Source: a virus. From it: a stretch of 28,422 bases of DNA. Every line of letters starts with the position of its first letter. Within the stretch, counting starts at the first letter, position 1. The notes beneath the pieces are model-generated. The model worked only from the letters and a program-made list of their open reading frames with translations, was not told the DNA's origin and ran no database searches. This document shows positions 6,099 to 12,624 of this stretch, piece by piece. Position numbers and translations under genes: made by a program. The stretch covers positions 64,001 to 92,422 of IMG/VR virus record IMGVR_UViG_3300035156_000188. One strand, given 5' to 3'.

Positions 6099-6310
6099 AG
6101 CGCAGCAAAATCGAAGAGAAGCTGAACGACGCCATGCAGCGCAAGTCGAGCGCTGAGTGGGACGAGCGCAGCCTCACCAGCGACATCAACTACCACGACG
6201 GCGAGGCCAGCCGCATTCGCAAGCGGCGCCAGAGCGCGCGCAGCAAGATCGACCGCGCCAAGGCGACGATCGAGCGCCTGACCCAACAACTTTACGAAAG
6301 CGCCCCATGA
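6095..6310 (+). CDS. Small charged coiled-coil protein, 71 residues
   Basis: ATGA overlaps join it to genes on both sides. It is very rich in Arg, Lys, Glu, Ser and Asp, with predicted helices at both ends: an N-terminal KIEEKLNDAMQRK segment, and a C-terminal segment (RSKIDRAKATIERLTQQL) with heptad-like Ile/Leu spacing. There are no cysteines and no membrane segment. It may be an adaptor for the nuclease before it or the phosphoesterase after it, but no family is recognised. Confidence 0.75.
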   Translation: MKRSKIEEKLNDAMQRKSSAEWDERSLTSDINYHDGEASRIRKRRQSARSKIDRAKATIERLTQQLYESAP

Positions 6311-7338
6311 CCCTGACAGTAGTTAACGACTGGCACCTCGGTGCCCACCGCAGCGCCGGCACCACGCCGGCGACTGCCTACCAGCTGCGCATGGATCTGC
6401 TGGAGTTTGCTTCACGCCTCCTGGGCGGCGTGACTGGCAACCTGCTGGTGAATGGCGACCTGTTTGACGGCCCGGACATCCCGCGCGCCGACATGCTGAT
6501 GGCCGTGCGCCTGTTCAACGACTGGCTGGAGGCCGACCGCAGCCGGCGCCTCTGGCTGTCGAACGGCAACCACGACCTCGACAAGAACGCGACGCGGCTC
6601 TCGTCCTTCCAGTTCTTCGCCCAGCTGCTGGTGTCGATGCACCCGGAGCAGGTCGAGCACATCACGACCGGCCAGCACCTGCGCCTGCACGACGCCTGGG
6701 TCATCCCGCACATGCCGAACCAGGACCTGTTCGAACTTGAGCTGGAGAAGGTGCCGCCTTGCCGCTTCCTGTTCGTCCACTGCAATTACGACAACCAGTT
6801 CGCCGTCGAGCAGGATCACAGCCTGAATTTGTCGCGGGAATGGGCCGAAAAGTTGCCGGTGGAGTATATTGTCTTCGGGCATGAACACCAGGGCCGTACC
6901 GAGCTGGGCGGCAAGGTCGTGATCGTCGGGAACCAGTTCCCGTCCTCGGTCAGCGACTGCCTGGGCAACTGCGACAAGAACCTGCTGCGCACCGCCGGCG
7001 GCCGCTACGCCCTGCAGACCACGTGGCAGCCTGACGGCGACTTCGCGATACAGGACTGGCGCGAGCTGGAAGACACCGGTGCCCGCTTCATCCGGGTGAC
7101 CGGCCAGGCGGCAGCTGCCGAGGCGCCGGCCGTGGTCAACGCCGTCAGCCGCTTCCGCGCCAAGGCCGACGCCCTCGTCATCACCAACGCGGTGAAGATC
7201 GAAGGCGTCAACGACAGCGCCCAGCTCGAGCTCAGTCACGAGCAAATCAATTCGTTCAACGTCCGCGAAGCCTTGCGCGAGATGCTGACCGATACCGAAA
7301 ACCAAAAGATCGACATGTTGATGTCGGAAAGGGAGTAA
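6307..7338 (+). CDS. Mre11/SbcD-like metallophosphoesterase (DNA exonuclease subunit)
   Basis: Calcineurin-like phosphoesterase of 343 residues starting at the ATGA overlap. The two-metal motifs are all present: D8-x-H10 (NDWHLG), D51 (NGDLFDG), N88-H89 (SNGNHD), H158 (FVHCN) and H192-x-H194 (FGHEHQG). The Rad50/SbcC-like ATPase encoded shortly downstream makes the Mre11/SbcD or phage gp47/D12 nuclease role most likely, namely ATP-controlled processing of DNA ends. The tail beyond the catalytic core (about 220-343) would hold the capping and ATPase-binding parts. In most genomes the two subunits are adjacent; here a PP-loop gene is inserted between them, beginning the base after this stop. 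Confidence 0.88.
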   Translation: MTLTVVNDWHLGAHRSAGTTPATAYQLRMDLLEFASRLLGGVTGNLLVNGDLFDGPDIPRADMLMAVRLFNDWLEADRSRRLWLSNGNHDLDKNATRLSSFQFFAQLLVSMHPEQVEHITTGQHLRLHDAWVIPHMPNQDLFELELEKVPPCRFLFVHCNYDNQFAVEQDHSLNLSREWAEKLPVEYIVFGHEHQGRTELGGKVVIVGNQFPSSVSDCLGNCDKNLLRTAGGRYALQTTWQPDGDFAIQDWRELEDTGARFIRVTGQAAAAEAPAVVNAVSRFRAKADALVITNAVKIEGVNDSAQLELSHEQINSFNVREALREMLTDTENQKIDMLMSERE

Positions 7339-8049
7339 ATGCAACAGCCCAAGCACGTCGTCGGCCTCTCGGGCGGCAAGGATAGTGTTGCCCTGGCCCT
7401 CTGGCTGGTGGAGAACGAGCCGCGCGAGTACGAGTTCATCTGCAACGAGACGGGGAACGAGCTGCCTGAGTGGCGCCGCCACATGGAAGAGCTGGAAGTG
7501 CGCCTCGGCGCGCCCATCAAGCGTATCCGGTATCACACTGACTTCTTCGGCATGATCGAAGAGGTGCAGATGCTGCCAAACTTCCGGGCCCGGTTCTGCA
7601 CTCGCATGCTGAAGATCGAACCGACGATCGAGTATTTCGAGAGCCTGCCGGCCGGCTCCGTGCTGTATGTGGGCCTGCGCTCGGACGAAGAGGAACGCCG
7701 CGGCCTGTACGGCGAGGACATCGTCGTCCGCTTCCCGCTGCGCGAGCAGGGGATCGACCTGGCCGGCGTCTGGTCGATCCTGAACGACCGCGGCGTCGCC
7801 ATCCCGGCGCGCACCGACTGCGCGCTGTGCCCGTACCAGCGCCTGGGCGAGTGGCGCAACCTGTGGCGCGACGAGCCGGCCGAATACCAGCGCGGCATCG
7901 AGCTGGAGGCGAAGTTCGGGCACACCTTGCGCTCGCCAGGGCGCGACAAGTGGCCAGCTCGCCTGGTCGACCTCGCAGAAGAATTCAAAAAGGGCCGCCG
8001 CATCCGCGGCGACGGTAAGGAACAACCCTGCCGCGTCTGCTCAATCTAG
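7339..8049 (+). CDS. PP-loop ATPase, PAPS reductase/DndC-like (copy 1)
   Basis: Adenine nucleotide alpha-hydrolase (PP-loop) fold: the signature SGGKDS lies at residues 11-16, and ICNETG at 34-39 is the expected second strand. Three conserved cysteine sites follow: C87 (FCTRMLKIEP), C161/C164 (CALCP) and C231/C234 (CRVC at the extreme C-terminus). The superfamily includes PAPS reductases, DndC and tRNA-thiolation enzymes, which activate substrates by adenylylation and often carry sulfur or Fe-S chemistry. The cysteines could bind an Fe-S cluster or zinc. The gene begins directly after the Mre11-like stop (ribosome site GGGAG) and is followed 10 bases later by the Rad50-like gene. The actual substrate cannot be named from sequence. 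Confidence 0.85.
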   Translation: MQQPKHVVGLSGGKDSVALALWLVENEPREYEFICNETGNELPEWRRHMEELEVRLGAPIKRIRYHTDFFGMIEEVQMLPNFRARFCTRMLKIEPTIEYFESLPAGSVLYVGLRSDEEERRGLYGEDIVVRFPLREQGIDLAGVWSILNDRGVAIPARTDCALCPYQRLGEWRNLWRDEPAEYQRGIELEAKFGHTLRSPGRDKWPARLVDLAEEFKKGRRIRGDGKEQPCRVCSI

Positions 8050-8059
8050 GGAGAAAATC

Positions 8060-10264
8060 ATGTTAGAAAGTATCCGCCTGCAGAATTTTCGTAAGCACGC
8101 TGACCTGACGGTGCACTTCACCGCAGGCATCAACGCCATCCGCGCTGCCAACGAAGCCGGCAAGTCGACCCTCATCGAGGCCAGCGCCTACGCCGACTTC
8201 GGCGCGGCCGGCCTGAAAGAGAGCATCGACGACGTCGTCACCTACGGCTTGGCCAAGTCCAAGCTGCGCGTCGAGAAGGTGTTCACCCTGGCCGGCGCGC
8301 GCTACAAGATCGTCCGGTCGCCGTCCGGCGCCGAAGTCTACGTCAACGGCAAGGACGTGCCGGACGTCACCGGCCAGAAAGAGGTGACGAAGTTCATGGA
8401 GAACCTCTACGGCACCACCCACGCCATGGCCGCCAAGCTGATGCTGGCCAAACAGAAGGATCTGGGCGGCGCGCTCGCTGGCGGCCCGACCGAGGCCGGC
8501 CAGATGATCGAGGCCTTGGCCGACCTGGGCCTGATCGACGAGCTGGTCGGGCTTGTGACGAGCAAGCTGCCGCAGGGCGACACAAAGGCGACGCAGGCCC
8601 AGATCGAAGCCTGGCGCTCGCTGGCCGAGCCCGCCGAGGTGCCGGATCTCGCGCCGCTGGAAGCGACGGTGGCCGAGCTGGCTGGACGCCGCGACATCGT
8701 CAGCGGCATGCACGAGCGCCGCATGCTCGAGCTCGAACTGGCGCAACCTGGCGAGCTGGTTGCGCGCGGCGTGCAGGACGACGCCCATATGCTCGAGGTC
8801 ACGATGCAGCGCCGCACCAGCCAGATCGAAACCCTGGAGGCGGCGGTCGCTGGCGAACTGCCGACGGCGCCGGCGCCGGAGGAGATCGAGGCCCTGCGCG
8901 CCAAGGTAGAGCAGCAGAAGCAGGCCGGCGCCGTCGCCGGCCTGCATCGCTTGCTGGTGTCGGCGAAGATCGTGCCGCACCAGTGGGATGAACCGCTCGA
9001 CAAGCTAGAAGCGGAGATCGCGGCCATGAAGGCCAAGGTCGCCGGCTTCGACACCCTGCGTGGCGCCACGCGCCGCGAGCTGCAGGCGATCGAGGATTCA
9101 GCGCAGCAGGCAGGTGCTGATTTCCGGCAGCGTCGCGCCGAGCTCCAGGGGCGCCTGATCAAGGAGGACTCGTGCGCGTTCTGCGGCAAGGATTTGAAGG
9201 ACGTGCCGGAGGTGGCGCGCTTCAACAGCCCGCTGCAGGCGGAACTCGACCAGCTTGAACGTGACCACACCGCCGCAGGCCAGACACGCCTGGACGCGGC
9301 TCAGGTGCTGCGGCAGAAGATCGACGAGATCGACGCCGAGTCGCAGGAGGCCCAGCAGTATTTGGAAGCCCTGCAGAACGTGATGACCGCGCACGCCAAG
9401 GCTGATCTGCTCTACGCTCGCGCGCACGACTACATCAGCCTCGATCGCAGCGGCGTGCCGTTTGCCTGGTCCTGGACCGGGCCGGTCGAGACCGACACCA
9501 CCGACTACGCCACCGAGCTGCGCGGGCTGGAGCGCCGGCGCGATGCGGCGACGGCGGCGATCGCGCGCCGGCAGGAGCAGCTGCTGCAGCTGGTAGCCCT
9601 GCAACAGGAACAGGAGCACGACGCCTTGGTGCGCCGAGAGCTCGACACCGACGCGGCCCAGGCCACGATCGTAAAGTTCCAGGCCCTGCGCCAGCTGGTC
9701 CAGGAGCTGGGTGCCGACCTGCGCGCGAAAGAGATGGCGCACCGCGAGGCCGTGCAGCAGCTGGAGCTGGCCAAGGTCAAGCGTGACGGCGTGCTGGCGC
9801 AGGTCGAGCGCGCGAAGGTGCAGCTTGCCGGCGCGCAGGCACAACTTGCCGAGATCGAAGCGAACAACCTGCTGGTGAAAAAGCTGCGCGCGGCGCGCCC
9901 GGCGATCACCGACAAGCTGTGGGCGATGGTGTTGGCCAGCGTCTCGATGCACACGGCGCAGATGCGCGGCGAGATGTCCGTCATCACCCGCGACGAGGGC
10001 CGCTTCAAGATCAACAGCCGCCCGGTGTCAGGCCTGTCCGGCTCGGCCGAAGACACGCTGGGCCTGGGTATCCGCATCGCCCTGACCCGCACCTTCCTGC
10101 CCAACGTCGACTTCCTCATGCTGGACGAGCCGGCCGCAGCATGCGAAGATGCTCGGGAGCAAGCCATGCTGGGCCTCCTGGCCACGTGCGGCTTCGACCA
10201 GGTGATCCTGGTCACCCACTCCCCACTGGCCGACTCGTTCGCCCAAAACATCATCACCTTCTAA
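8060..10264 (+). CDS. Rad50/SbcC-like ATPase with zinc hook
   Basis: SMC-family ATPase that would pair with the Mre11-like nuclease at 6307. Walker A is degenerate at its start but intact in NEAGKST (G34-K35-S36). Long Glu/Gln/Ala/Leu-rich coiled-coil arms surround a CAFC zinc hook (C372, C375) in the middle. The C-terminal lobe has the signature region GLSGSAED (about 658-665), Walker B MLDEP (D689-E690) and the H-loop VTHSP (H720). At 734 residues it is much shorter than bacterial SbcC, so the coiled-coil arms are short, as in phage versions. The signature reads SGS rather than the usual SGG. The ATG has a good ribosome site (GGGAGAAAA). Confidence 0.9.
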   Translation: MLESIRLQNFRKHADLTVHFTAGINAIRAANEAGKSTLIEASAYADFGAAGLKESIDDVVTYGLAKSKLRVEKVFTLAGARYKIVRSPSGAEVYVNGKDVPDVTGQKEVTKFMENLYGTTHAMAAKLMLAKQKDLGGALAGGPTEAGQMIEALADLGLIDELVGLVTSKLPQGDTKATQAQIEAWRSLAEPAEVPDLAPLEATVAELAGRRDIVSGMHERRMLELELAQPGELVARGVQDDAHMLEVTMQRRTSQIETLEAAVAGELPTAPAPEEIEALRAKVEQQKQAGAVAGLHRLLVSAKIVPHQWDEPLDKLEAEIAAMKAKVAGFDTLRGATRRELQAIEDSAQQAGADFRQRRAELQGRLIKEDSCAFCGKDLKDVPEVARFNSPLQAELDQLERDHTAAGQTRLDAAQVLRQKIDEIDAESQEAQQYLEALQNVMTAHAKADLLYARAHDYISLDRSGVPFAWSWTGPVETDTTDYATELRGLERRRDAATAAIARRQEQLLQLVALQQEQEHDALVRRELDTDAAQATIVKFQALRQLVQELGADLRAKEMAHREAVQQLELAKVKRDGVLAQVERAKVQLAGAQAQLAEIEANNLLVKKLRAARPAITDKLWAMVLASVSMHTAQMRGEMSVITRDEGRFKINSRPVSGLSGSAEDTLGLGIRIALTRTFLPNVDFLMLDEPAAACEDAREQAMLGLLATCGFDQVILVTHSPLADSFAQNIITF

Positions 10265-10274
10265 GGAAAATTCT

Positions 10275-10487
10275 ATGAACGACGACTTCAAACTGCACGA
10301 CGGCTGGATGGAGCTCAACGCCTTCTGCGAGAAATACCAGCAGCGCGCCAACACCATCCACAAGCGCGTGACCGACGGCGTCTGGCCGCGGGGCGAGTTC
10401 TATGCTGCCCCATCCGGCAGCGTTGGCTACGTGCACGAAAAGAAGGCCACCGAATGGTTGGCCTCGAAAGGGAAGCTGGTACTGTGA
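10275..10487 (+). CDS. Small excisionase-like DNA-binding protein
   Basis: A 70-residue protein with the look of a Xis/AlpA-type winged helix: GWMELNAFCEKY forms the first helix, NTIHKRVTDGVWPRGE the helix-turn-helix and wing entry, and GYVHEKKATEWLASKG the closing helix. Proteins of this shape bind and bend DNA or regulate promoters. No integrase is seen, so an excision role is unlikely to apply here and local regulation or a link to neighbouring enzymes is more plausible. The ribosome site is AAGGAAA, and the stop overlaps the next start as GTGA. Confidence 0.65.
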   Translation: MNDDFKLHDGWMELNAFCEKYQQRANTIHKRVTDGVWPRGEFYAAPSGSVGYVHEKKATEWLASKGKLVL

Positions 10488-11317
10488 GCGACATCATCAC
10501 CGCAGGCGGGATCGCCATCCCGCGCCAGCCCGGCACCCTCCGCGCGCTGGCATACGGCGGCGGCCGGGACTCTTCCGGCATCCTGGCCGGCTGGTACGAG
10601 AAGGGCCTGCAGGAGACCGACCCGATCCACGTCATCGTCTTCGCCGACACCGGCGGCGAGCGCCCGCACACCTACGCCTACATCGAAGAGATGCAGAAGT
10701 GGCTTGCCGCGCACGGCTTCCCGCCGATCACGATCGTCCGGAAGGGCGGGCGCCAGGAGAGCTTGGAAGAGAATTGCCTGCGCATGAACATGCTGCCGTC
10801 GCTGGCCTACGGCTTTAAGGGTTGCTCGCACAAGTTCAAGGTCGAGCCGCAGGAGAAGTTCTTCAACAACCTGCCGGCCGCGCGCGAGACCTGGCGCGCC
10901 GGCCAGCTGGTCACGAAGATGATCGGCTACGAGCACCGGGAAAACCGGCGCTGGTCGAAGGCGAAGCGCAGCGACGACAAGTACGAATACGAGTTCCCGC
11001 TGGTGGACTGGGGCTGGAACCGTGAAGAGTGCGAGGCGGCGCTGGTGCGGGTCGGCCTGCCGATTCCGCAGAAGTCGAGCTGCTTCTTCTGCCCGGCCAG
11101 CACTCTGCCCGAGATCCGCGCGCTGCGCGAGCAGTACCCGGATCTGCACGAGCGCGCGCTGGCCATGGAAGCCCAAGCCAAGCTGACCAGCGTCAAGGGT
11201 CTCGGCCGGCGCTTCGCCTGGCGGGACGTCGACGTGATCGACATCCCGGTGCGCGTGGTCCAGGAGCTCGAGGTCGACCGCTGCCGCAGCTGCATCGACC
11301 ACCCGATCGACGAGTAA
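10484..11317 (+). CDS. PP-loop ATPase, PAPS reductase-like (copy 2)
   Basis: Starts at GTG in a GTGA overlap; 277 residues. The PP-loop is a variant, YGGGRDSS (residues 24-31), in which Gly and Arg replace the usual Ser and Lys; GGG-type loops are known in phage members. VFADTGGERPHT (52-63) follows. Cysteines repeat the layout of the copy at 7339: C114 (GCSHKFKVEP), C200/C203 (CFFCP) and C267/C270 (CRSC near the end), plus C98 and C183. The shared C-(T/S)-x-x-(M/F)-K-(I/V)-EP, CxxCP and CRxC pattern makes the two paralogues. It is the last gene of the operon, 3 bases before the terminator hairpin. Substrate unknown; nucleotide, nucleic-acid or sulfate-type chemistry is possible. Confidence 0.83.
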   Translation: MSDIITAGGIAIPRQPGTLRALAYGGGRDSSGILAGWYEKGLQETDPIHVIVFADTGGERPHTYAYIEEMQKWLAAHGFPPITIVRKGGRQESLEENCLRMNMLPSLAYGFKGCSHKFKVEPQEKFFNNLPAARETWRAGQLVTKMIGYEHRENRRWSKAKRSDDKYEYEFPLVDWGWNREECEAALVRVGLPIPQKSSCFFCPASTLPEIRALREQYPDLHERALAMEAQAKLTSVKGLGRRFAWRDVDVIDIPVRVVQELEVDRCRSCIDHPIDE

Positions 11318-11319
11318 AG

Positions 11320-11346
11320 AAAAGGCCACCTTCGGGTGGCCTTTTT
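11320..11346. terminator. Bidirectional intrinsic terminator between convergent operons
   Basis: Perfect stem AAAAGGCCACC / GGTGGCCTTTT with a TTCG tetraloop (11331-11334). On the plus strand it ends in TTTTT; on the minus strand the A-rich left flank gives TTTTCTTT. It lies between the last plus-strand gene (stop 11317) and the last minus-strand gene (stop 11352), so it can stop both early and late transcripts. Confidence 0.93.
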
Positions 11347-11351
11347 GCATT

Positions 11352-12116
11352 TCAGGCTGCGTACTGCAGCTTTACGTCCGAGAGCGCGATGAAGTGCTCG
11401 TCGAAGTGCCCGTCCTCCACGTTGTGGAGCATCAGGACGCCGTGCCAGTGCTTGTTACCCTGCGGGCCGAGATAGCCTTCCTCGTGCTCGTAGCAGCTGC
11501 CGGCGATGATCGACGTGATGCGCCGGCCATCGGCGCGGTAGGCCGAGGCGGCCTGGCGCCCTTGCTGGTGGCCGGCGATACAGCTCATGTGCTTCTTGTT
11601 AAGTTGGGCCTGGGCGGTTGAAGCTGGGCGGCCCATGGTGCCGGTGGTGAAATAGTGCGAAAACGCAACAGCTTCGATCACCACCACTTCCAGGAAGTCG
11701 TAGACTTCCCAGCCGAATTCCCTGTAGCGCAGATCGTCGGTCGAGATTGTGCCGTCGAGCATCGGGTCGTTGTTGATGGCGCGGTTGATACGGTCTTCGT
11801 GATTGCCCATTGTGAGCACCAGACGCGGGCGGTAGATACCGTGCTTGCTGGCCAGCCGACGCAAGTTGTACTCGCGCAGCGGCCCGAGCAGGGCCTCCAT
11901 GCCGCGGTGTACCGACTCGACGTCGGCGCGGTAGCGGCGGCCCTCGAAGGATTTCTTGCCCTTGTCGTACGAGGAAAGGGACGGCATGTCGGCGAAGTCG
12001 CCGATGCACACCACTGCGTCAGGCTTCTCGGCCACGATCATGCGGCCAATGCAGGCCAGGAACTCGAGATCGTCGCCAGGGCGAATCTGTGTGTCAGGGA
12101 TTACCAGTATTTTCAT
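11352..12116 (-). CDS. Calcineurin-like metallophosphoesterase (late cluster)
   Basis: A second metallophosphoesterase, 254 residues. Metal motifs: D8-x-Q10 (IPDTQ, Gln in place of His), D40 (IGDFAD), N105-H106 (MGNHED), H183 (AGHQQG) and a late HWHG. The DxQ variant occurs in phage and stand-alone phosphoesterases and is unlike Mre11. The ATG at 12116 was chosen over two in-frame ATGs at 12128 and 12137 because GGAAG is well placed before it. It overlaps the Rz gene end by 23 bases and is last in the late operon. Possible substrates are nucleotides, phosphorylated ends or signalling nucleotides; nothing in the sequence decides this. Confidence 0.85.
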   Translation of the reverse strand: MKILVIPDTQIRPGDDLEFLACIGRMIVAEKPDAVVCIGDFADMPSLSSYDKGKKSFEGRRYRADVESVHRGMEALLGPLREYNLRRLASKHGIYRPRLVLTMGNHEDRINRAINNDPMLDGTISTDDLRYREFGWEVYDFLEVVVIEAVAFSHYFTTGTMGRPASTAQAQLNKKHMSCIAGHQQGRQAASAYRADGRRITSIIAGSCYEHEEGYLGPQGNKHWHGVLMLHNVEDGHFDEHFIALSDVKLQYAA

Positions 12117-12624
12117 CGGGGCTTCCATAGAATCCATTGGCGCGCACCCAGCCCTGCAGTGCCCGCAGCTGCTCGGCCAGTTGGTCGGCGCGCAGGGTCA
12201 AGCCGAAAAGGCGTTCTTGAGTTCGTTCAGGAAGCTCGACGGTGCCGGCGCCGGCTTCATCAGGTCCGCTGGCGCCTGTGGCTTCGCCGGCGGCGGCAGC
12301 TGGTCGGCAGGAAGCAGGGGCGGGGATGCGCAGCCCGCCAGCGCGGCGCACAGCAGCAAGGTCAGTTTCATAGTGGTGATCCAGGTCAGAGAGGGCTTTG
12401 TCATGGGCGGCGGTGGCCGCGCGGGCTTTGGCTTCGGCGGCGCGGCGCTCGACGTCGTACTTGTTCACGAGCGCGGCGACGGCCTTGGCGCGGGCATCGA
12501 GCATCTCGACGCGCTCAGCCTGCCAGGCTGCCCGCTCGCCGTTGGCGCCGACGCTGTGGCCGAAGTAGAAGGTCGCGATGAAGACGACCAGGAGGCTGAT
12601 GACGATGGCGAGTGCGCGATTCAT
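12094..12624 (-). CDS. Rz: Inner-membrane spanin (Rz-like)
   Basis: A 176-residue protein with an N-terminal transmembrane anchor (about residues 3-22, ALAIVISLLVVFIATFYFG) followed by a long charged Ala/Glu/Arg-rich coiled coil, the typical i-spanin plan. It would span the periplasm and fuse inner and outer membranes at the end of lysis. The start was placed at the ATGA overlap with the preceding gene; an ATG 12 bases further upstream is also in frame. Identity is strengthened by the Rz1 lipoprotein encoded inside it in another frame. The Ala/Pro/Gly-rich centre is where the two frames overlap. Confidence 0.88.
   Translation of the reverse strand: MNRALAIVISLLVVFIATFYFGHSVGANGERAAWQAERVEMLDARAKAVAALVNKYDVERRAAEAKARAATAAHDKALSDLDHHYETDLAAVRRAGGLRIPAPASCRPAAAAGEATGASGPDEAGAGTVELPERTQERLFGLTLRADQLAEQLRALQGWVRANGFYGSPDENTGNP
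12198..12371 (-). CDS. Rz1: Outer-membrane lipoprotein spanin (Rz1-like), embedded in Rz
   Basis: Entirely inside the Rz gene in a different frame. The 57-residue product begins with a short lipoprotein signal (MKLTLLLCAALAGC) with lipobox LAGC and lipidated C14. The mature part is rich in proline (LPPPAKPQAPAD), as usual for o-spanins. An in-frame ATG at 12404 would add 11 residues that do not look like a signal peptide, so 12371 is preferred, although its ribosome site is weak. Lipidation implies a Gram-negative host. Confidence 0.87.
   Translation of the reverse strand: MKLTLLLCAALAGCASPPLLPADQLPPPAKPQAPADLMKPAPAPSSFLNELKNAFSA

Follow-up and report, generated by a model that had tools for sequence, protein, structure and literature searches.

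Two stand-alone PP-loop genes in a phage replication/recombination module and the slots that such genes share beside polA

IMGVR_UViG_3300035156_000188 is an IMG/VR virus record of 92,422 bases, and the window analyzed here is the 28,422-base stretch at its positions 64001–92422. Within the window, a block of five genes (6307–11317, all on the plus strand) encodes, in this order, an Mre11-like protein, a PP-loop protein (PP1), a Rad50-like protein, a small helix-turn-helix (HTH)-like protein, and a second PP-loop protein (PP2). We read PP1 and PP2 as accessory genes that were acquired independently from an interchangeable set of phage PP-loop genes and plugged into a replication/recombination module, where they probably serve nucleic-acid modification or counter-restriction; we give this reading about an even chance of being right. 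The same slots beside polA are used by four PP-loop subfamilies that are deeply separated, and also by modification genes and mobile genes; neither PP1 nor PP2 travels with Mre11–Rad50 in related phages.

Exchange of PP-loop genes beside polA

Most PP1 relatives belong to a phage family with a module of helicase, VRR-Nuc, DUF2800, orf210, polA, and primase genes, in which the PP1-type gene lies immediately 5′ or 3′ of polA; exactly these two positions are taken by a PP2-type gene in further members of the family. A search that started from polA gave 66 complete loci of this module (55 clusters at 95% polA identity), and 21 of the 66 carry one PP-loop gene each, which is of the PP1 type in eight, the PP2 type in four, NinC-like in five, and PptA-like in four; close relatives of PptA itself (3.6e-68) are among the slot occupants. 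The occupation of polA slots by PP1-, PP2-, NinC-like, or PptA-like genes in another phage family is what is new here. The other occupants are DNA methyltransferases (C5, Dam-type, and a further putative type known by sequence only), HNH genes, and a few unclassified inserts, while both slots are empty in 28 loci, which rules out that PP1 or PP2 always fill them. Exclusion between PP-loop genes was also considered and set aside, as the count of loci with two such genes (0/66, against an estimated 1.6 or so if the genes were independent) is not a significant departure. A recurrent phage protein of 193–196 amino acids (aa), with a methyltransferase-like PPC motif and no Pfam match, occupies the same polA slot or adjoins the helicase gene (L203, 4423–5004; L004, 1732–2322, minus strand).

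The two genes of the window have separate origins within the superfamily. In a tree of 42 proteins, the phage PP1 clade is sister to four SspD proteins of sspABCD loci with a support of 99/98, and PP2 falls into a separate, abundant clade of phage and plasmid proteins outside the SspD clade; the tree has long deep branches that leave some other joins uncertain, but the PP1–SspD, PP2-clade, and non-sister groupings are stable. A sister relationship of PP1 and PP2 is rejected (p-AU 1.5e-9), ruling out a recent duplication in place, and the term "diverged paralogues" used in the first-pass annotation, a model's reading of the sequence alone, holds at the level of the superfamily but not below it.

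Such genes are scattered in other phages. They are solitary and on the opposite strand in Salmonella phage FSL SP-031, where the gene is of the PP2 type, and in SI2, and at one further locus a PP-loop gene adjoins a cytosine methyltransferase gene. The phage of the window is not alone in carrying a pair of PP-loop genes: Pseudoalteromonas phage KB12-38 carries two different ones 2.6 kb apart (L043, 4950–5789 and 8428–9429), placed around a ligase-like gene and adjoining methyltransferase genes, with a Rad50-like gene elsewhere in the phage, and two viral contigs (L119, 6001–7741; L131, 259–4820) each have two PP2-like genes near one another.

The gene block and its Mre11–Rad50 pair

The features of the block, given in window positions, are as follows.

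6307–7338, plus strand: Mre11/SbcD-like nuclease, 343 aa, with all phosphoesterase motifs retained
7339–8049, plus strand: PP1, orphan PP-loop protein of the SspD clade, 236 aa (SGGKDS, CTRMLK, CALC, C-terminal CRVC), inserted in the mre11–rad50 slot
8060–10264, plus strand: Rad50/SbcC-like ATPase, 734 aa, with a central CxxC hook motif
10275–10487, plus strand: small HTH/excisionase-like protein, 70 aa, kept 3′ of rad50 in 6/6 closest relatives
10484–11317, plus strand: PP2, orphan PP-loop protein of the second clade, 277 aa (GGGRDS, CSHKFK, CFFC, C-terminal CRSC)
11324–11346, strand unassigned: terminator-like hairpin as read from the sequence (GGCCACC-TTCG-GGTGGCC, then TTTTT), closing the block ahead of the convergent gene

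The order and the tight spacing (at most 10 bases) reported in the first-pass annotation are correct, with 0 bases between the Mre11 gene and PP1, 10 between PP1 and the Rad50 gene, 10 between the latter and the HTH gene, and a 4-base overlap between the HTH gene and PP2. PP2 begins with GTG at 10484, and a longer alternative with ATG at 10454 would overlap the HTH gene further. The small gene is likewise real, but the sole basis for calling its product DNA-binding is a weak match to an excisionase PHROG (0.002). Genes for DNA polymerase A, ligase, thymidylate synthase, and a junction-resolvase-like protein lie 5′ of the block. PP2 is inserted between the HTH gene and a convergent phosphoesterase gene; this second metallophosphoesterase-like gene (11352–12137, minus strand) was detected in five relatives, at 71–80% identity. 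The third-position GC content (GC3) is 0.87 for PP1 and 0.93 for PP2 and resembles that of the neighbors (0.81–0.91), so that any acquisition is not recent by this measure, and dN/dS ratios of 0.02–0.06 among relatives of both genes, approximate because several dS values are saturated, indicate strong purifying selection and show that these are not chance open reading frames.

The Mre11-like protein (Pfam Metallophos, 4.2e-9) retains DxH, GDxFD, GNHD, FVH, and GHEH, the five motifs of the phosphoesterase, and the Rad50-like protein (AAA_23, 5.7e-12) retains the Walker A motif, a central zinc-hook-like CAFCG motif, the signature, the Walker B motif, and the H-loop. The pair is best read as an ordinary phage end-processing pair of the SbcCD type. 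Its separation by a PP-loop gene had been considered unusual; among 21 related Mre11–Rad50 loci (16 viral contigs and five named phages) the distance between mre11 and rad50 ranges from 4 to 2008 bases, so the split pair is ordinary and only its occupant, a PP-loop gene, is unusual. A D12 adenine methyltransferase gene occupies the gap in Vibrio phage SHOU24, and in one contig (L219, 9080–10582) thymidylate synthase matches in two pieces about 730 bases apart between mre11 and rad50, where an intron or an insertion is possible.

In the six nearest Mre11 relatives (65–69% identity, on contigs of 82–93 kb), polA is followed in conserved succession by the genes for ligase, thymidylate synthase, and resolvase, then mre11, rad50, hth, and the phosphoesterase gene, apart from the absence of individual genes. 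Both PP1 and PP2 are absent from the mre11–rad50 region in all six, in one of which mre11 and rad50 are 4 bases apart, and three of the six carry, at some other place in the record, a PP-loop gene from a different subfamily. Profiles of five PP-loop subfamilies found no PP-loop gene in the block at any of the 21 loci. In the reverse direction, profile searches of the flanks (5–8 kb surveyed, on contigs that are fragments) gave no Mre11 match beside 18 PP1 relatives (60–70% identity) or 80 PP2 relatives, and only one weak Rad50 match (2e-6) among these 98 loci; the Mre11 and Rad50 profiles recovered 11 of 11 positive controls, although these controls had been used in building the profiles. A search of genome contigs for PP1 kin and one of viral contigs for Rad50 added nothing of use.

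These counts bear on the coordinated system that the first-pass annotation had proposed for DNA modification or end processing. Considered here in a DndCDE-like form, with Rad50 as the analogue of DndD, it would make PP1, PP2, the HTH protein, and Mre11–Rad50 a single machine. In its favor are the tight same-strand packing of the block and a paper (PMC12707154) that describes DndD, the ATPase working with DndC, as being of the ABC type. Tight packing is usual in phage operons, however, and the missing co-occurrence in both directions means that the Mre11/PP-loop arrangement is not conserved, so that the joint system was rejected as a candidate and this explanation, largely refuted, is highly improbable. 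On present sequence comparisons, PP1 and PP2 are best regarded as not being subunits of the Mre11–Rad50 nuclease.

Proposed chemistry and probable role of PP1 and PP2

Both proteins match PHROG 424 (PP1, 1.5e-35; PP2, 8.4e-30), and PP1 also matches Pfam PAPS_reduct (5.9e-8), for which PP2 is below the cut-off (0.0094). The SGGKDS loop in PP1 and the GGGRDS loop in PP2 were identified correctly at first reading, as were the CxxCP and C-terminal CRxC motifs (CALCP and CRVC in PP1, CFFCP and CRSC in PP2); the shared cysteine motif reported there, C(T/S)xx(M/F)K(I/V)EP, is present in the form C[TS]xx[LF]K[IV]EP (CTRMLKIEP in PP1, CSHKFKVEP in PP2), the M/F having been a slip for LK/FK. The first cysteine and the CxxC are retained in PP2 relatives, whose loop reads GGG[RT][DN]S or similar and whose C-terminal pair is variable, and the altered loop (GGGRDS, or GGGTNS in relatives) may reflect a weaker or different use of nucleotides.

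PP2 matches also occur in 153 plasmid records, 37 of them from Pseudomonas, and on plasmid pBR164 of P. aeruginosa (L056, 1370–5116) a PP2 homologue lies directly 3′ of acrE1, acrF3, another acr gene, and an HTH gene. In IMGVR_UViG_3300046684_000128 (L021/L022), a PP2-type gene spans the contig ends and changes frame; either the copy is broken or the sequencing erred.

Genes of this kind are usually annotated as cysH, and the auxiliary metabolic genes named in metagenome papers include viral cysH. The shared fold and the database annotation would allow PP1 and PP2 to reduce PAPS for sulfate assimilation. In place of the CysH loop (SFGIQA in E. coli), however, PP1 carries the ATP-type loop SGGKDS; it also has additional CxxC pairs and lacks the catalytic ECGLH at the C-terminus. 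On the NCBIfam CysH model, whose cut-off is 154 bits, PP2 reaches 16.7 and PP1 has no match, and the genes reside in replication modules and not with sulfur genes. Plain CysH is ruled out by these scores and motifs, in agreement with the initial distinction of both proteins from it, and sulfate assimilation is an improbable role. Of the two observations that the first-pass annotation had named as refuting its proposal, one was made, as the PP-loop genes of relatives are unlinked to Mre11/Rad50; the other, a match of both proteins to plain sulfate reductases, was not. DndC identity is ruled out in the same way (PP1 scores 14.1 bits on NCBIfam TIGR03183, with a cut-off of 290.4), and CysH and DndC are below cut-off for both proteins. 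PP1 matches the PADLOC model of SspD over part of its length, with 1.9e-44 and 150.5 bits over model positions 1–202 of 277, compared with 437–464 bits over nearly the whole length for true SspD proteins.

PP1 and SspD have in common the loop and five cysteines, in CTRxLK, a CxxC, and a C-terminal CxxC. The best plasmid relatives of PP1 are SspD proteins with a cysteine desulfurase, DUF4007 (SspB), a large protein in the SspC position, and downstream effectors at the locus, although in one of these loci the stretch read has no annotated desulfurase. SspD and DndC have ATP pyrophosphatase activity and receive sulfur from a cysteine desulfurase in their respective systems, Ssp and Dnd (PMC7188994, PMC8569181), and IscS can stand in for DndA; the IscS of the host could therefore also serve a phage enzyme that has the loop and cysteines of SspD. 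Each PP-loop enzyme would probably bind ATP through its loop and adenylylate its target with release of pyrophosphate, after which the conserved cysteines (CTRxLK and the two CxxC pairs, probably a [4Fe–4S] site) would deliver sulfur drawn from the host cysteine desulfurase. The target is likely to be a nucleic acid, most likely the phage DNA, which would then be shielded from host restriction or sensing.

The sister position to SspD, with all cysteines retained, and the failure to find further ssp genes in the phage record would also suit PP1 as a decoy or replacement subunit that binds SspA/IscS or SspB/C and either blocks host phosphorothioation or uses it to mark the phage DNA. As PP2 and NinC-like genes (tree-tested) and PptA-like genes lie outside the SspD clade and yet take the same slots, a mechanism confined to SspD does not explain the exchange, and such mimicry, while a live rival, is quite unlikely.

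AlphaFold models of PP1 and PP2 (pLDDT 83 and 80) have PP-loop folds, with the C-terminal cysteines of both in low-confidence tails. Foldseek places them closest to CysH, LarE, NcsA, and TtuA, with further matches to QueC and GMP synthetase, at TM values of about 0.4–0.5 that settle the PP-loop fold only and not the subfamily. The matches to the [4Fe–4S] tRNA thiolases NcsA and TtuA, and a cysteine layout that would suit such a cluster, keep alive a role in RNA modification, for example tRNA thiolation or repair in the manner of TtcA, NcsA, and TtuA against anticodon-cutting defenses. The sequence clade of PP1 is nevertheless that of SspD and not TtcA/NcsA, there is no RNA-binding add-on domain, and the neighbors are DNA polymerase, primase, and nucleases, so that we consider RNA as the target unlikely. 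Other chemistry on nucleotides or bases, such as amidation, nitrile formation as in QueC, or modification at the dNTP level, would fit the replication-module location, the matches to QueC and GMP synthetase, and the inclusion of such enzymes among PP-loop folds; it is a further live rival, and a doubtful one, as the conserved CxxC pairs and the kinship with SspD favor transfer of sulfur over nitrogen.

The most likely role, at about an even chance and with sulfur left open, is modification of DNA or another nucleic acid against host restriction: independent plug-ins that trade places with DNA methyltransferases are more likely to modify or protect DNA than to form one machine with repair proteins. 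DNA modification or counter-defense, suggested from the outset, accordingly keeps its leading place on the grounds of the SspD sister clade and the slots traded with methyltransferases. Also in favor of the main reading are the adenine methyltransferase gene in the mre11–rad50 gap of SHOU24 and the place of a PP2 homologue beside acrE1–acrF3 on pBR164. Several points weigh against it. The slot survey covers one phage family, picked because its polA resembles that of a PP1 carrier; the methyltransferases and PP-loop genes in the slots were assigned only by similarity to representatives; and selfish elements, in the form of HNH genes, use the slots too, so that a shared slot is no proof of a shared function. 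Searches of the phage record detected neither SspB (DUF4007, PF13182) nor a cysteine desulfurase (PF00266), with positive controls detected, so a complete Ssp system is absent, and with no SspB/SspC to choose the DNA site a complete phosphorothioation pathway is not claimed. Under laboratory conditions lambda does not need NinC (PMC10695390), as would suit a conditional role, but this does not tell what the role is. Gene identities, clades, slot exchange, missing linkage, purifying selection, and the PP-loop fold are observed; the ATP pyrophosphatase chemistry, the Fe–S cluster, sulfur, DNA as the target, and the counter-restriction role are inferred.

A more specific and tentative proposal is that the SspD-like, PP2, NinC-like, and PptA-like subfamilies are interchangeable stand-alone counter-restriction enzymes, which would place sulfur or another group on phage DNA from activated sulfur supplied by the host and would be swapped with methyltransferases in replication-module slots. 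If so, PP-loop subfamilies commonly annotated as viral sulfate-assimilation genes would have a counter-restriction function. Viral cysH is frequently counted among auxiliary metabolic genes and taken as a sign of sulfur metabolism in phages; the loop and cysteine motifs, the kinship of PP1 with SspD, and the trading of the same slots between four subfamilies and DNA methyltransferases speak instead for a nucleic-acid role. The role of lambda NinC and its kin becomes testable by comparing gene loss with virion DNA chemistry or with plating on restriction- or phosphorothioation-positive hosts.

Comparison with known systems

The pair that flanks PP1 matches the phage SbcCD/Mre11–Rad50 families (PHROG 77 and 100) and has all their motifs, differing in being parted by PP1. 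PHROG 424, labeled phosphoadenosine phosphosulfate reductase and often called viral cysH, is spread over many phages as scattered orphans; PP1 and PP2 both match it, but the function in the label is unsupported, as their loop and C-terminus are unlike those of CysH. PptA (PDB 21fy) is the solved structure with the best sequence match to PP1 (2.5e-4) and belongs to a different subfamily; literature searches gave no paper on it. Lambda NinC is an orphan PP-loop protein encoded in a recombination module, with the gene for the recombination mediator NinB on one side and that for the junction endonuclease NinG on the other, and NinC-like genes, although in a clade separate from those of PP1 and PP2, share the polA slots with both types. 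PP1 resembles SspD in its loop, of the form SGG[KR]DS, and in its cysteines, and is about 30–41% identical to the SspD-like plasmid proteins listed; it differs from SspD as an orphan without SspA, SspB, or SspC, about 40 aa shorter and with a lower score on the SspD model.

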